This document shows, in pieces, positions 32,477 to 39,502 of a DNA stretch of 64,000 nucleotides. The stretch lies in NCBI RefSeq assembly GCF_000215995.1, contig NC_015680.1:868001-932000 (forward strand), written 5' to 3'. The stretch's first letter is position 1, and each line of letters begins with the position of its first letter. The notes beneath the pieces are model-generated. The model did not search any database. It saw nothing but the letters and a program-made list of their open reading frames with translations, and had not been told where the DNA came from. Source of the stretch: Pyrococcus yayanosii CH1 (GTDB lineage Archaea > Methanobacteriota_B > Thermococci > Thermococcales > Thermococcaceae). The position numbers and the translations under genes are program-made.

Positions 32477-33400
32477 TTAGAAGCCGAAGCCCCCAATTTC
32501 CATTTTGGTACCAAGGATAAACACCAAGATGCCCATAGCTATCATTATCGCCCCATACTTAAGGCCAGCCGAGAAATTCCCTTCCCTTATCACCCCTATA
32601 CCAAGCCCGCTGACGAAGGCTTGGGCAACCACGAAGAGTCCCAGTATTGTCCTTATCGCATCCACAGGCAGTGTAAAGCCGAGCTGTGCACCGGACATTC
32701 CCTCAGTAATCTTGGAGATAACCGCCAGTATGAGAGGCCCTATGAAACCGCTTGCGGCCATGAAGAACATCATCTGCATGCCCGTCGCGGCTTTCCTCTC
32801 CTTCTTTATCCTGAGTATCTCCCTGACATCGTTGGCAACCGCTACAAGAACGTCGGCCATAGGGGCACCCCTTTCAAGTGCCTCGATTATTATCATCATT
32901 GATCTGTAGAGCACCGCAGACTTCCTGTTCCTCATAGCGAACGCCCTAAGGGCATCTATGGTTGGTCTTCCCCTCTTTATCTCGGCGACGGTCCTCTTAA
33001 ACTCCTCCGTTAATGCACCAAACTTTGCCGTTGTCAGCTCTTCCATAGCTTCCGAGAAAGAAACGCCCGCCCTCAGGGAGCTCGCTAGGTAAAAGAACGC
33101 ATCGGGGAGCATCTTCTCCATTTCTTCTATTCTCCGAGATACTTTCCAGTAGGGGTAGATAATCGCAAAGGCGAGGAAACCACCAAAGAAGCCGGCGATG
33201 CCATAGAGAGGATTAAAGAACATCAAGATTAAGATTAAACCAGAAACTATGCCTACCATGACGGATATTCCAAGGTACTCTGAGGCCTTGAAGTTTATCC
33301 CCGCCGAATAGAGAAGGAGCTCGTACCTCTTCAAGTGCCTCTTTGGAACCATCCTCTCTATAAAACCCGTCAGCAACCTGGTGAGCCTTCCATTTGGCAT
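32477..33400 (-). CDS. Type II secretion F / TadC-like membrane protein
   Basis: A 307-residue polytopic protein with the T2SF pattern: spans at about 40-85, a cytoplasmic helical bundle (RRIEEMEKMLPDAFFYLASS, LRAGVSFSEAMEELTTAKFG, IDALRAFAMRNRKSAVLYRS), then three C-terminal spans. Such proteins are the inner-membrane platform of type IV pilus and type II secretion machines and work with a GspE/TadA-type ATPase. It is the last gene of the minus-strand operon and pairs with the 353-residue homologue just upstream, probably as a heteromeric platform. Confidence 0.9.
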   Translation of the reverse strand: MPNGRLTRLLTGFIERMVPKRHLKRYELLLYSAGINFKASEYLGISVMVGIVSGLILILMFFNPLYGIAGFFGGFLAFAIIYPYWKVSRRIEEMEKMLPDAFFYLASSLRAGVSFSEAMEELTTAKFGALTEEFKRTVAEIKRGRPTIDALRAFAMRNRKSAVLYRSMMIIIEALERGAPMADVLVAVANDVREILRIKKERKAATGMQMMFFMAASGFIGPLILAVISKITEGMSGAQLGFTLPVDAIRTILGLFVVAQAFVSGLGIGVIREGNFSAGLKYGAIMIAMGILVFILGTKMEIGGFGF

Positions 33401-33404
33401 TTTA

Positions 33405-34466
33405 TCACCTCGGCTCGGCCCTCTTTATCATCATGACCATAATGAACGACAGGGAGGGGAATGCGAAGAGTAAGATGACGGCAAGTGCCGGTATCGTTAT
33501 TACGAGGGCCTTCGCCATGAGGGATGCCGCAAGTATCGCCACAACCATGAGGGTCGGCATTACAACCGTCAGGAACATATATATGAACGCGAGACCGTTC
33601 ACCTTCTGGACATACTCCATGAGCTTAATGCGATACTCAAAAGAAAAATCCTCAGCCATCTTGTAGAGTACATCGGCAAGGTTGCCGCCAAACTTTATCG
33701 CCCTAAGCATCTGCTTCACAACCCTACTGACACTCTCCGACCCCATGCGCTCCTCGAACCTTGTTATCGCATCTTCAAAGCTCGCCCCACCATGCATGTC
33801 CCTAATCATGAGCTCGAATTCCTCTGAGATGGCTCCATAATCAGCGTTCGCAACTGACAGAAGGGCTTCCGCAATGCCCACGCCTGCGTTCAATAGCGCG
33901 GCCATGTGCCTAAGAACATAGGGCAGAGCTCTTTCAACTTCTTCAACTCTCCTCCTCCACACTATCTTTGGGTAGTACCTCATGTACATGAAACCACCAA
34001 TGAATCCGAGGAGTCCAAGGAGGATAGAAAGGTCTATTGGCATGTAGAGGAGAAAGCCAACCAGAAATCCAAATATTGCCGCAAATATAGCAACGCCAAG
34101 CATAAGGGCAACGTATCTTTCCCTGGACATCCTCATATTAGCCCTGTAAAGATCAACATCAAGACCCTTGATTGATTTGCTGAGCGATTCGACAGGCCCC
34201 CTGAAGTACTTGAGCATTGCATCAGCAAACCTCTCCGAAAACGGACGCTGAAGCTCTTTCTCGCGCCACTCAATCGTCTCTTCAAGGATTTCCTCCTCTT
34301 TCTTTTCTCTCTCCTTTTGGATTTCCTCCTGCATTTTCTTTAGGAGCTGGAGCCTTTCGGCTATTGGCATACTGCGGGGTATCCTCCTGATTGGCTTCTC
34401 TGCAACTTCAATTGTCTTGCCCCCGAGCTTCTCTAGGAAATTCGTTATCTTTTTCTTAATAGCCAT
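33405..34466 (-). CDS. Type II secretion F / TadC-like membrane protein
   Basis: A 353-residue protein. The first 80 residues are charged and coiled (LQLLKKMQEEIQKEREKKEE), followed by membrane spans (VALMLGVAIFAAIFGFLVGF, LGFIGGFMYMRYY) and the T2SF bundle VEEVERALPYVLRHMAALLN / AGVGIAEALLSVANADYGAI, then C-terminal spans. It is a paralogue of the downstream 307-residue gene. It is four bases from that gene and ten from the KlbA-type ATPase gene, so all are co-expressed. It likely forms the membrane platform for a pilus- or secretion-like device. Confidence 0.9.
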   Translation of the reverse strand: MAIKKKITNFLEKLGGKTIEVAEKPIRRIPRSMPIAERLQLLKKMQEEIQKEREKKEEEILEETIEWREKELQRPFSERFADAMLKYFRGPVESLSKSIKGLDVDLYRANMRMSRERYVALMLGVAIFAAIFGFLVGFLLYMPIDLSILLGLLGFIGGFMYMRYYPKIVWRRRVEEVERALPYVLRHMAALLNAGVGIAEALLSVANADYGAISEEFELMIRDMHGGASFEDAITRFEERMGSESVSRVVKQMLRAIKFGGNLADVLYKMAEDFSFEYRIKLMEYVQKVNGLAFIYMFLTVVMPTLMVVAILAASLMAKALVITIPALAVILLFAFPSLSFIMVMMIKRAEPR

Positions 34467-34476
34467 TTACTCTCCC

Positions 34477-37050
34477 TCACACGAATTCTTGAACCCTTCT
34501 GCTCATCTCTATTGTGGATTCCCTTTGAATCTTCTTCAGGAACTCCTCCTCGTCCACGTAAAACTCCCTTATGTTAGCACCTACCTGGTCTATGCCTCTT
34601 ATGCCCCTCTCTATCATCCACTCTAGAATGAGCTTTCTCTTCTCTATCTCGATTTTCAGCTCCTCGACGCTCATGCCCGTGTGATATGATAACGTATTAA
34701 GAAATCTGCTCGGAACGCCCGTCGACACGAGCTCATCCTTGGCGGGGTCGTATTTATAGAGCTTGTTCAACTGAACGCTCTCCCCCTCTATTCCAGAAAC
34801 CTCAGCTATCTCCGTTATCCTTCTTATCGTTCCCTTCTTACGACTGTGATAGCGGACCTGCATAATAATTATGTCGAGTGCCGGGATCATAATCCTGGGA
34901 ACGTTCATCGGTGGGCTCTCAAGACGAACTATGGTCTCCCTAGCGCTGTTGGCGTGTATGGTGCCCATACAGTTGGAAACTATAAACCCACCGAACTTCC
35001 CGGCTATGTAGGTGTGATTATCCGCAACTGTCAGGTCGTACACATAATCATCCACGTTAATCTCCTCTATCTCCACGACCAAATCCCAGTAGACATCCGC
35101 ATCGGCGAGGAGTTCGAGTTCCGAGCGCTGTAAAATCTTTGCCAACTCCTTAACGCGTCTGCGTGAGGGTGAGCAGACGTTCCGCTCATAGGCCTCTATA
35201 GTGCTTCCACTAAGTCCGAGCAGGGAAGCAAGCTCTTCCTGAGTCAGTCCAGCAGATCTTCTTATCTCCCTGATAAGCTCACCGATGTTTGGTATAACGT
35301 CAAGGGACTCACCGGCTTTCTGAGAGAGTGCTATGTAGTCGCCAACCCTCAGCTTCTCGGCGTTTATCTCAACTATTCCGTTTTTGATTATGTAAACGGG
35401 GTGGTCCGGAGTTAAAGTTATCTCCTTGCCTGTCTTGGTTCTGATACGCAGCATCCTGCCCCTGTATCTCCTGCGCCATACCCTCGTCACTGGCTTATCC
35501 TCAATCTTGAAGGTCTCCTTGTTGAAGCTCTTGACGAGAATCCCCCTCTCGGATACGTCCACCCACTCAAAGTCCCCTTCTCTGTGGATCTCTCCATCCT
35601 GGAAGAACTCCTCAGCCAGCCTCCCTATCTCAATTACTCCGCCGTCAGAGAGCTGTATTGGCTCGTCCCCGAGTAAGGCACCATCATGACCGGTATTCAT
35701 CGCCGTGAACATAGTTCTCGCTTCAGGCCCGCGAACCTCACCAACGATAATCCTGTCGGGACGCATACGCAGGGTGTTCTTAACAAGGTCATCCATAGTT
35801 ATTTCTCCCTTCCCCTCGACGTTTGGCGGTCTCGTCTCGAGCCTTACCCAGTGCTCTATAGGCAACTGAAGCTCCGCAGTATCCTCTATGCTTATGACGC
35901 GCTCGCTCGGGGGTATGAACATTGCAATGGAGTTGAGAGTAGTGGTTTTACCGGAACCGGTTCCACCGGCCACGAGGATGTTGGCCGGCTTAACGCCGAG
36001 ACCATCAACGAGGAGCCAGAGAAACGCTGCGACCTCCGGGTTAAGCGTGCCATACTTTATCAGGTCTATTATCGTCAGCGGATCCTTTTTGAACTTACGG
36101 ATAGTTAGCGTCGGTCCGTCAAGGCTTATCGGAGGTATGGTGGCGTTTACACGGCTACCATCGGGGAGGCGGGCATCAAGAAGCGGACTTTGTTGGTCTA
36201 TCCTCCTGCCAACCTCCCTCGCTATGCGCTCTATTATGTTGAGGATTTCCCTATCATTTTCGAAGACGATGTTGGTCTTGCACATGCTGAAGCGGCGATG
36301 CCACACGTAGACAGGCCTGTTCGTTCCAATAACCATAATCTCCTCAAGGTTATCATCCCTAACGAGGGGATCAAGCTTGCCGTAGCCAATCATGCTTTGA
36401 ACGACGAGTTCCGAAAGAAGCTCGACCCTACCCTCCGACAGGGTTGGTGCCATTTCCTTGACCATCTTCCTAACTTCTCGGAGAAAGACCCTCCTACGTT
36501 CCTCGAGGTTCGGTATGCTCTCCGGATCTATCTGAATTTCCACTATAGCCCTGTCCCTGACCATTTTAAGCAACCTTTCCTCCTCCTTGCTCAATTCTGG
36601 CATTTTAATTTCATATATTGGAATTGGTTCCCCTTTGACCTTCAGTATCCTCACGTTGCCGTAAACATCGAGAACCTTAATCTCCCCAGAATAAACGGAG
36701 GGTTTTCTCGCTCTCGTCCCAAGGATGTCTTGAATACCCATATCTACAAGAGCAGGCTGCTCTCTCACTTTCTTGGGCTCCTCGCTCGGCTTCTTCAGTA
36801 TGTCTTCAAGCTTCGGACCTCCGCCCCCTTTCAAGAAGGCCAGGGGAGATGGAGTATCTTCCCTGGGTGCACTCTCCTTGGTGAGGAGTGCCCCAAGGGA
36901 GAGATCTGGAAGGGATGCTTTATCCTTCTCTGCTGGCTTCTCTTTCGGCCTCTCACCCTTACCAAGTATGGCCTCAAGGGAGAGATTATCTCCACTAAGT
37001 ATCTCATCAATCCAGGACGTTGACTTTTTCTTTTTCTCCTTCTTTTCCAC
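34477..37050 (-). CDS. klbA: KlbA-type secretion/pilus ATPase with intein
   Basis: An 857-residue precursor; about 621 residues after splicing. It is a GspE/TadA/VirB11-type hexameric ATPase. Residues 1-120 are low-complexity and charged (possible partner-binding leader). The core follows with the arginine-finger-like DARLPDGSRVNATIPP, Walker A AGGTGSGKT (about 361-369), the Asp box ISIEDTAELQLP, Walker B-like RPDRIIVGEVRG (about 431-441) and, after the intein, the His box GTIHANSARE. An intein interrupts it between MNTGHDG and CMGTIHAN, the usual KlbA site. Start is GTG 37050. It is expected to power the two TadC-like proteins encoded directly downstream. Confidence 0.94.
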   Translation of the reverse strand: MEKKEKKKKSTSWIDEILSGDNLSLEAILGKGERPKEKPAEKDKASLPDLSLGALLTKESAPREDTPSPLAFLKGGGGPKLEDILKKPSEEPKKVREQPALVDMGIQDILGTRARKPSVYSGEIKVLDVYGNVRILKVKGEPIPIYEIKMPELSKEEERLLKMVRDRAIVEIQIDPESIPNLEERRRVFLREVRKMVKEMAPTLSEGRVELLSELVVQSMIGYGKLDPLVRDDNLEEIMVIGTNRPVYVWHRRFSMCKTNIVFENDREILNIIERIAREVGRRIDQQSPLLDARLPDGSRVNATIPPISLDGPTLTIRKFKKDPLTIIDLIKYGTLNPEVAAFLWLLVDGLGVKPANILVAGGTGSGKTTTLNSIAMFIPPSERVISIEDTAELQLPIEHWVRLETRPPNVEGKGEITMDDLVKNTLRMRPDRIIVGEVRGPEARTMFTAMNTGHDGALLGDEPIQLSDGGVIEIGRLAEEFFQDGEIHREGDFEWVDVSERGILVKSFNKETFKIEDKPVTRVWRRRYRGRMLRIRTKTGKEITLTPDHPVYIIKNGIVEINAEKLRVGDYIALSQKAGESLDVIPNIGELIREIRRSAGLTQEELASLLGLSGSTIEAYERNVCSPSRRRVKELAKILQRSELELLADADVYWDLVVEIEEINVDDYVYDLTVADNHTYIAGKFGGFIVSNCMGTIHANSARETIVRLESPPMNVPRIMIPALDIIIMQVRYHSRKKGTIRRITEIAEVSGIEGESVQLNKLYKYDPAKDELVSTGVPSRFLNTLSYHTGMSVEELKIEIEKRKLILEWMIERGIRGIDQVGANIREFYVDEEEFLKKIQRESTIEMSRRVQEFV
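34972..35679 (-). other. KlbA intein, Ala1 type, with HTH insert
   Basis: A 236-residue intein (precursor residues 458-693). Block A is ALLGDEPIQL, so the first residue is Ala, not Cys or Ser. Block B contains TLTPDHPVYI, block F is VYDLTVADNHTYIAGKF, and block G is GFIVSN followed by Cys+1. Ala1 inteins at this site are known from Methanocaldococcus KlbA and splice by direct attack of Cys+1. Instead of a LAGLIDADG endonuclease, residues about 131-190 form an XRE-like helix-turn-helix (IREIRRSAGLTQEELASLLG, LSGSTIEAYERNVCSP). The intein is in frame with both exteins and looks splicing-competent. Confidence 0.92.
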
Positions 37051-37066
37051 ACTCCATCACCGTCCC

Positions 37067-38083
37067 TTAATCTCCAATCTCCCACCTGAATCTGTAAGAA
37101 ATCTCGAATTCAAGCTTTCTACATCCTATGTTCATATCTGCACCAAGCCACACTATCCAAATAGGGAAGTCAATGGGCTCCATCTCGCCTCCTTGAATTA
37201 ACGTGGCCTTTATCTTGCCTAGGGTGATTAGGGAATCTGTGAGCTCGTAGAGGACAAGGTCAGGGGTCACGTTGAGGGAGACGCCCTCCTTCATAGGTTC
37301 AATTCCAAGGTATTCGGGGAGGAAATCATTAACGTACTCCCTATATGTCATCGTGTAATTGGGCGTGAAGGCATAGTGCTCCGCATCCTTAAAGAGGACA
37401 GGGGGTGCAATGGCAAAAAGTGTTCTGAAGTTTCCGTATTGTCCGGGAACATTTTCAACCCTAAACCCTACCGTCCCCCAGTAATTAAGGATCTTTATGC
37501 TGGGATCCCGAATTGGAAAGAGTATCGTTGGATCAATGAACTTCGGGGTGTTAAGCAACTGGGGGTATATAACATCGCAGAAGGGTCCATTTCCAAGGTC
37601 ATCTTTCGTATTGACGTGGCCTGTGACATTTCCATTTTCAAGGGTTACCTCAGTTATTTTATACTCACCACATAGACTGACGTAATCCTTGAGGTCTATC
37701 ACAAGGGGGTTCGACTCTATAATCCTGAACTCAACGACCACAACCTCGTGTGGATGTATCCAGAAACCAATGTAGTAGTTCAATGTGTTTGCCCAGGAAT
37801 TGCCAAGAGAATAGTACACCGTGTCACCAACCAAGAAAGACTTATAGCTTTCGTTGCCAGGATATCCCCTGTGAACGACGAAATCGTAGCGAGGATTCAC
37901 AAGGACGAACTTAGGGAAGGGGCCCGTGTTTACAAGGGTAACGTTAAGGGTCAGGTAAAGCTCTGAGTGGAGACCTATGTTATTATAATCGGGGTGACTG
38001 GGGAGGTTATACGTCCCACCGAGCACGGGAGACGTCGTAAAAGCTACTAAAAATGTTAGGAAGAGAGCAATAACCGGCCTCAC
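37067..38083 (-). CDS. Secreted protein in KlbA operon
   Basis: A protein of about 338 residues with a signal peptide (VIALFLTFLVAFTTSPVLGG) and a beta-rich exported part (LYLTLNVTLVNTGPFPKFVL, VVVVEFRIIESNPLVIDL). Two cysteines may form a disulfide. No TM anchor follows. The family is not recognised. GTG 38083 is preferred because GGGGTGA lies just before it; a GTG at 38092 falls within that SD. Its position between the DUF515 gene and klbA suggests an outer component or substrate of the secretion device. Confidence 0.75.
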   Translation of the reverse strand: MRPVIALFLTFLVAFTTSPVLGGTYNLPSHPDYNNIGLHSELYLTLNVTLVNTGPFPKFVLVNPRYDFVVHRGYPGNESYKSFLVGDTVYYSLGNSWANTLNYYIGFWIHPHEVVVVEFRIIESNPLVIDLKDYVSLCGEYKITEVTLENGNVTGHVNTKDDLGNGPFCDVIYPQLLNTPKFIDPTILFPIRDPSIKILNYWGTVGFRVENVPGQYGNFRTLFAIAPPVLFKDAEHYAFTPNYTMTYREYVNDFLPEYLGIEPMKEGVSLNVTPDLVLYELTDSLITLGKIKATLIQGGEMEPIDFPIWIVWLGADMNIGCRKLEFEISYRFRWEIGD

Positions 38084-38088
38084 CCCTG

Positions 38089-39502
38089 TCACCCCACGAT
38101 TTTCGCTATCACTATCGAGCCCCTATAATTGAGGATGTCGGGAACGAACTCCTTGGGAACCTCGACCACCACTAGGACGAGGGTGTTAGGTGGTAACGCA
38201 AGGAAGCCGGACTCTTCTTCGAGATCAAGGACTCTCCACCCGTAGTTCTTTAGTTGCTCCCTGACTTCCTCCGGAGTCTTTATCTTACCGGCCGCTATCG
38301 CCTTAAGTATTTCGGAGAGGTCAACCGTGTAGGAATAGGAAGCGGTCACACTCTCGCTACTGACTTGGCTAGTGGAATGCTGCTCCTGCTTCTGCTGGCT
38401 TATCGTGAGGGTATTGTCACCCGGGGTGTAGGAGGTGCTAGAGGTGTCGGTCGTTGAGGTTGTGGCAGAGCTCGATATCGAGGTGCTCTGACTCTGAGAT
38501 TCGGAAACCGAGATCATCCCCGCATCCGTTGAGAGAAGTGGCAAGACGACGTAACCCTCTGGAGCTATCTCTACGAATTTTGTTCCGTTCATAGCGTATA
38601 TCTTTATCTTATCTCCAGGTTGGAGGAACCCACCAACGACGTTGTCGCGCGTGAGGAGAAGGGCAATTTGAACATATTCAACTTTCTCAACTTCATAGGA
38701 GAGAAGCTCCGCGAGGTCGTTTATCTTGCTTATCTCCACCTTCGCCTCCTGCTTAGTGTATATCCGCATTTCTTGGCCCTTCTTGAGGATTACCTTCTGG
38801 GTGGGAATTGTATCAATGCGATAGTAGTAGTACTGCTTCCACAGATTCAGGAGGTAGGGCGTCGGGTCTATCGAGAGCACGGCTTCCTTGCTTTGGGCTT
38901 CATCGATCTTCTGGATGATTTCATCCATGGTCTTTACCACTTCACTCTTGAGTTCATCGGGAAGCGGCATGGCAAGAAGGGGTTCAAATGCCATCGTCAC
39001 GTTGGCTTTCACCTGCTCCTTGAGCAGTTCAAGCTCCCTTTGAGCCCTCAGGGCCTCCTCTCTGCGCCTTTCTTCTTCTATTTCTCTAAGCCTTTGCTCG
39101 TATGTAGCCTTTACATCTATCTGATTGAGCTCCTCAATACTTTTGGCAGCCATAATCTTATTTATTATGTTGGTACTTGACAGTATCATTAGCGAGCTCC
39201 CCCGTAAAGTATTTATTTACCTCAGCTATTTTGGCTTGTTTAGCTAATTCCAGTTCTCTCGCGGCCTTGTTTTGAAGGTAGACATAAACGGCAAGCACAG
39301 CAACTATGATTATTATGCTTATAATCGTCGCCCCTATAATTATCCTCTTCCGCCTCTCCCTTTCTCGCAGGGTACCTATCCTAGAAATCCTCCTCCTAGG
39401 AGGTTTCGGTGCCGCAGGAACGGGAGGCTGCTCCTCCGTCTCTCCAATAGTTCTTCCAAGCTCTCTTAAACGTCTAATCTTGGACTCTATATCCTCAGCC
39501 AC
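38089..39502 (-). pseudogene. DUF515 family protein, frameshifted
   Basis: Two frames together give about 470 residues, typical for DUF515. The first covers a charged N-terminus, one membrane span (IIIGATIISIIIIVAVLAVY) and the helix KAARELELAKQAKIAEVNKY. It ends at 39158. The second continues TNIINKIMAAKSIEELNQID, a long coiled coil (YEQRLREIEEERRREEALRA), a SAF-like FLQPGDKIKIYAMNG segment and a Ser/Thr-rich low-complexity stretch. A +1 shift near 39165-39185 joins them. GTG 39502 follows GGTGGTG and sits about 8 bases past the expected transcript start; ATG 39520 would precede it. It heads the klbA operon. Mutation, sequencing error and programmed shifting are all open. Confidence 0.7.

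Follow-up and report, generated by a model that had tools for sequence, protein, structure and literature searches.

The KlbA intein of Pyrococcus yayanosii CH1 is a class 2 (Ala1) intein which is probably (at a rough probability of 0.82) part-way through the loss of its homing enzyme, with a helix-turn-helix (HTH) domain left behind as a drifting remnant of the accessory domain of the nuclease. The intein is encoded in the window analysed here, a stretch of 64,000 nucleotides from an assembly which consists of a single contig of 1,716,818 bases. The features of the window on which the argument rests are the following:

34477..37050, minus strand: host gene, a KlbA/TadA-type secretion or pilus ATPase with an in-frame intein (T2SSE E=6.5e-46; TadA/FlaI-type models)
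34972..35679, minus strand: complete class 2 (Ala1) intein of 236 residues, ALLGDEPI...GGFIVSN (open reading frame, domain matches, alignment of intein-less ATPases)
35323..35679, minus strand: N-terminal half of the Hint domain, intein residues 1-119, with TPDH as block B (68% identical to the JdFR-02 KlbA intein and homologous to 2JMZ)
35098..35322, minus strand: retained accessory domain, intein residues 120-194 (E=1e-22 and 55% identity with its JdFR-02 counterpart)
35110..35274, minus strand: XRE-type HTH core, intein residues 136-190, with Gln147 and the recognition helix STIEAYER (HTH_3 match; fold)
34972..35097, minus strand: C-terminal half of the Hint domain, intein residues 195-236, with blocks F and G and the end Ser-Asn (83% identity to JdFR-02)
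34969..34971, minus strand: Cys+1, the first C-extein residue and expected splicing nucleophile (sequence; role from PMC4031507)
35320..35325, minus strand: putative place of the LAGLIDADG deletion, near residues 119/120 (JdFR-02 alignment; good to a few codons)

The klbA frame is intact and, with the GTG start taken from the ORF finder output, encodes an 857-residue precursor in which a T2SSE-family ATPase is interrupted by the intein. Two T2SSF/ArlJ-like membrane proteins are encoded downstream (33405-34466 and 32477-33400), which gives the cluster the look of an operon for the assembly of a type IV pilus-like structure, while the 341-residue protein encoded directly upstream of klbA (37067-38092, minus strand) gave no family match in Pfam or NCBIfam. 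The intein corresponds to residues 458-693 of the precursor, with the junctions ...MNTGHDG/ALLGD and ...GGFIVSN/CMGTIHANS; an Intein_splicing match lies inside the frame (E=5e-27) and intein-less ATPases align across the insertion site. Class 2 inteins are marked by Ala1, Cys+1 and a Ser that precedes the terminal Asn, and all of them were orthologues of the Mja KlbA intein (PMC4031507). The P. yayanosii intein begins with Ala1 in place of Cys or Ser, has Ser where His would usually precede the C-terminal Asn, and is followed by Cys+1; the Mja KlbA intein, which occupies the same site, is its closest solved structure by sequence (2JMZ, E=1.5e-42 over residues 1-121 and 197-235). The Ala1 KlbA intein that a first-pass annotation of this DNA had placed at 34972-35679 is thus confirmed to the exact position. 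Because of its class membership, the intein should splice by Cys+1 attacking the N-terminal junction directly.

The same annotation had described the intein as lacking a LAGLIDADG endonuclease and as carrying an XRE-like HTH in its stead, and both descriptions hold. None of the endonuclease families searched in the klbA precursor matched at E<=1, and the roughly 8 residues between the N-terminal half of the Hint domain and the HTH motif leave no space for one that escaped notice; a hidden endonuclease core, which had been named as possible counter-evidence, was looked for and is rejected. Like a mini-intein, the P. yayanosii intein has no homing endonuclease domain, and it differs from one in holding another inserted folded domain, the HTH at residues 136-190. 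This domain matches HTH_3 (E=1e-10), HTH_31 and HTH_19 and is free of frameshifts and stops. In an AlphaFold model of the intein it forms five helices at residues 132-193 with pLDDT values of 72-91 over most of the stretch, in a whole-intein model that is weak (mean pLDDT 63.6) and, outside the HTH, too weak to judge the interface between HTH and Hint domain. The modelled HTH fits the complex of the P22 c2 repressor with its operator at 1.0 Å over 53 columns, and a fold search places it close to DNA-bound P22 c2 and SinR, so that the model supports an intact fold of the lambda-repressor-like kind found in XRE regulators. The recognition helix is kept as well, being identical to that of JdFR-02 at 9/12 positions versus 27/54 in the rest of the aligned region; a loss of DNA-contact residues, the other counter-evidence named, is not what is seen. 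A canonical fold of this kind, as modelled, and a conserved recognition helix both speak for the suggestion that the unspliced precursor or the excised intein binds DNA as a regulator, for example at its own klbA operon, after a domestication comparable in principle to that of WhiA. The origin and the divergence of the domain point the other way.

The nearest relative is the KlbA intein of Thermococcus sp. JdFR-02 (G093; MTLP01000012.1, L115/L038), which is inserted at the same site and has 433 residues. The two inteins align end to end but for one large gap, about 196 residues long, which contains the two-motif LAGLIDADG domain of JdFR-02 (LAGLIDADG_3 E=2.6e-17) and is followed by the orthologous HTH. 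Among 94 genomes the HTH region finds JdFR-02 first (E=1e-22). CDC21-1 inteins follow with their accessory domains (E about 1e-11 to 1e-8), and free HTH proteins, some 65-105 residues long, match more weakly (E about 1e-8 to 1e-6). An XRE HTH likewise lies between LAGLIDADG and the C-terminal Hint half in the 25 distinct CDC21-1 inteins of full length that were compared, and the accessory domains of the TliVMA and PI-TkoII inteins are HTH-like by structure, that of TliVMA being located between nuclease and Hint-C (PMC8966425). As the P. yayanosii HTH is homologous to such an accessory domain (ACD) and has no nuclease joined to it, it would be the remnant of one. The order of the matches, together with the nuclease-HTH-Hint-C arrangement of the full-length inteins, strongly supports the view that the HTH is a homing-endonuclease accessory domain left after deletion of the nuclease, the leftover that the first-pass annotation had put forward. 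A regulator role sits poorly with a domain whose closest relatives are intein accessory domains and not regulators, and the isolated TliVMA accessory domain seemingly adds little or nothing to DNA affinity (PMC8966425). No orthologue of the same Hint-HTH architecture was found in 115 genomes of the phylum, which again counts against a conserved regulator. A single scan of GTDB genome contigs with a two-sequence alignment recovered JdFR-02 only; the survey of relatives was otherwise confined to the phylum. The HTH might also stem from a cellular XRE regulator and have been captured by a mini-intein that already lacked a nuclease, and accessory domains have indeed been proposed to be originally acquired from DNA-binding proteins (PMC8966425); but the same-site JdFR-02 intein has the orthologous HTH next to its LAGLIDADG domain, including the flanking segment KAGxSxDxxPNIG common to both inteins, which is better explained by shared ancestry. 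Capture from a free XRE protein is rejected on this ground and is regarded as exceedingly improbable.

The JdFR-02 nuclease may itself be defective. In the motif YLIGALLGNGHL of this intein (L038/L115) the first LAGLIDADG motif has Asn at the expected catalytic Asp; the G011 KlbA intein has the same change (LLGNG) and that of G088 has Ser there, so that decay of the nuclease through active-site change may be common. From its LLGNG motif, the JdFR-02 nuclease is predicted to make double-strand cuts weakly or not at all. The JdFR-02 genome also contains one open frame of 1097 codons (G093:C29:1767-4646) in which two matches to KlbA-type ATPases follow one another (at 62% and 60% identity), which may be a tandem duplicate that has become fused.

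Most of the KlbA-site inteins extracted from about 40 Thermococcaceae genomes span 499-531 residues and combine two LAGLIDADG motifs with an HTH-like accessory region. In Pyrococcus the sizes are 236 (P. yayanosii), 196 (G004), 207 (G008), 322 (G009) and about 500-522 residues (four others), the intein of G010 being only partly covered. The G004 and G008 inteins have lost both nuclease and HTH with their Hint motifs intact, and the G009 intein has lost LAGLIDADG and keeps, beside a stretch of unrecognisable sequence, an HTH-like region that has no Pfam match of its own and is assigned by alignment to full-length KlbA inteins. At another site, loss of LAGLIDADG with retention of the HTH is seen in three CDC21-1 inteins of 254 residues, those of G078, G082 and G083 (HTH_3 E=2.4e-6 for G078):

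G078:C1:1374998-1375720 (L012): HTH-only CDC21-1 intein
G082:C152:2957-3688 (L010): HTH-only CDC21-1 intein
G083:C47:5871-6602 (L011): HTH-only CDC21-1 intein

Since these cases differ by gene, site or lineage, the HTH-only stage is reconstructed to have arisen independently at least three times in Thermococcaceae, in P. yayanosii KlbA, G009 KlbA and the CDC21-1 trio. The comparison with KlbA inteins that had been proposed as a check for Pyrococcus, extended to JdFR-02, decides between the readings of remnant and regulator in favour of the former. Retention of the HTH in three lineages could also mean that folding of the Hint domain or splicing at high temperature relies on it, with no role in DNA binding, and cases have been cited in which deletion of the nuclease region impaired splicing (PMC8966425). 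This main rival is nevertheless considered unlikely, given that the G004, G008 and Mja KlbA inteins have intact Hint motifs with neither nuclease nor HTH. In two further KlbA loci, L085 (G014) and L112 (G084), the parts of the extein on either side of the intein are not in the same frame, which suggests an intein frameshift or a sequencing error.

The P. yayanosii intein is of another lineage than the other KlbA inteins sampled in the family, JdFR-02 excepted. In a tree of Hint domains it groups with the JdFR-02 and Mja KlbA inteins (support 97/92), apart from all other sampled Thermococcaceae KlbA inteins, although the branching order inside this trio is unsure owing to the long Mja branch. 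Its Hint domain is 71% identical to that of JdFR-02, 52% to that of Mja KlbA and 39-46% to those of the remaining KlbA inteins, while the N-extein of the ATPase is 93-95% identical to other Pyrococcus species. The simplest reading is that the intein lineage was acquired laterally. Two distinct intein lineages thus occupy the klbA site of Pyrococcus.

In pairs of nuclease-bearing CDC21-1 inteins at matched Hint identity, HTH identity is 65.1 ± 3.9% (n=50; minimum 56.9). The P. yayanosii and JdFR-02 HTHs are 53.7% identical and fall below this value, an expectation that is derived from inteins at another site; pairs of nuclease-bearing and HTH-only CDC21-1 inteins average 48.1% versus 65.3% expected, and the HTH of G009 KlbA stands at 46.9% versus 61.2% expected. 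The identity pairs are statistically non-independent and are hence given without p-value, and all three lineages deviate in the same sense, from which the HTH is judged to diverge faster once the nuclease is lost. For the P. yayanosii pair both branches may be relaxed, if the Asp to Asn change in motif 1 marks a decayed nuclease in JdFR-02; dN/dS is not used for this pair, whose synonymous sites are likely saturated (G+C 0.51 vs 0.34). In the HTH-only CDC21-1 trio the HTH has a dN/dS of 0.32-0.55, compared with 0.15-0.23 in Hint and no more than 0.02 in the N-extein, which indicates that the HTH is constrained, but loosely. Special protection of the recognition helix after nuclease loss is not borne out, as the trio changes 1/10 conserved helix positions and 6/20 elsewhere (Fisher p=0.37). 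The residual purifying selection could be explained by structural need, in keeping with a Hint domain that depends on the HTH, or by DNA binding; the greater divergence than in nuclease-bearing inteins weighs against both of these roles. As the HTH is more diverged in all three lineages, a slowly decaying remnant is favoured over a conserved regulator, a reading for which no positive evidence emerged and which ranks below structural dependence as the least supported and highly improbable. It is similarly improbable that the HTH-only inteins of the three lineages are functional DNA binders, the excised KlbA intein recognising DNA close to the homing site in klbA and either acting as a regulator or keeping related homing endonucleases from invading.

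For the preferred reading, partial loss of a homing enzyme, it is proposed that the ancestral layout was Hint-N, two-motif LAGLIDADG nuclease, HTH accessory domain and Hint-C, and that an in-frame deletion took out the nuclease, the HTH remaining within the splicing domain. Splicing would still occur and the host ATPase would be made normally, whereas the ability to home would be gone because the nuclease is gone. The HTH, which would formerly have helped the nuclease to grip DNA, is most likely a passive, compact passenger without present function, and may persist since its fold is compact, splicing is unblocked and little is gained from its removal, its sequence drifting under weakened constraint. 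The decay of a homing intein would then follow an order in which the nuclease goes first, the accessory HTH later and the splicing domain is kept, at two insertion sites and in three lineages within a single archaeal family. Whether accessory domains outlive the nuclease through structural dependence or mere inertia thereby becomes testable, and the inteins provide natural Hint-HTH fusions for asking about DNA binding by the accessory HTH alone.

As an evolutionary intermediate the P. yayanosii KlbA intein is uncommon, though its kind is known. The JdFR-02 KlbA intein shares with it the site, Ala1, Ser-Asn, Cys+1 and the orthologous XRE HTH (54-55% identical), and differs by the two-motif LAGLIDADG domain (LLGNG, LFDSD) between Hint-N and HTH. 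The Mja KlbA intein (2JMZ/2JNQ), the founding class 2 intein, has the same class marks and belongs to the same clade, but is a mini-intein without nuclease and without HTH. Other Pyrococcus and Thermococcus KlbA inteins (G004-G011, G013 and others) share the site and the class 2 marks, and their full-length members carry a more distant HTH-like accessory domain; they form a separate lineage, either full-length with LAGLIDADG or reduced to 196, 207 or 322 residues. The Thermococcaceae CDC21-1 inteins have a homologous accessory HTH (DVVPGVGKLL...GLTQ...STYxHYER), which stands alone in three related species, but their host gene is MCM and they are Cys1 inteins ending in His-Asn. TliVMA and PI-TkoII likewise have an HTH accessory domain in a homing-endonuclease intein, with the nuclease present and in other host genes.
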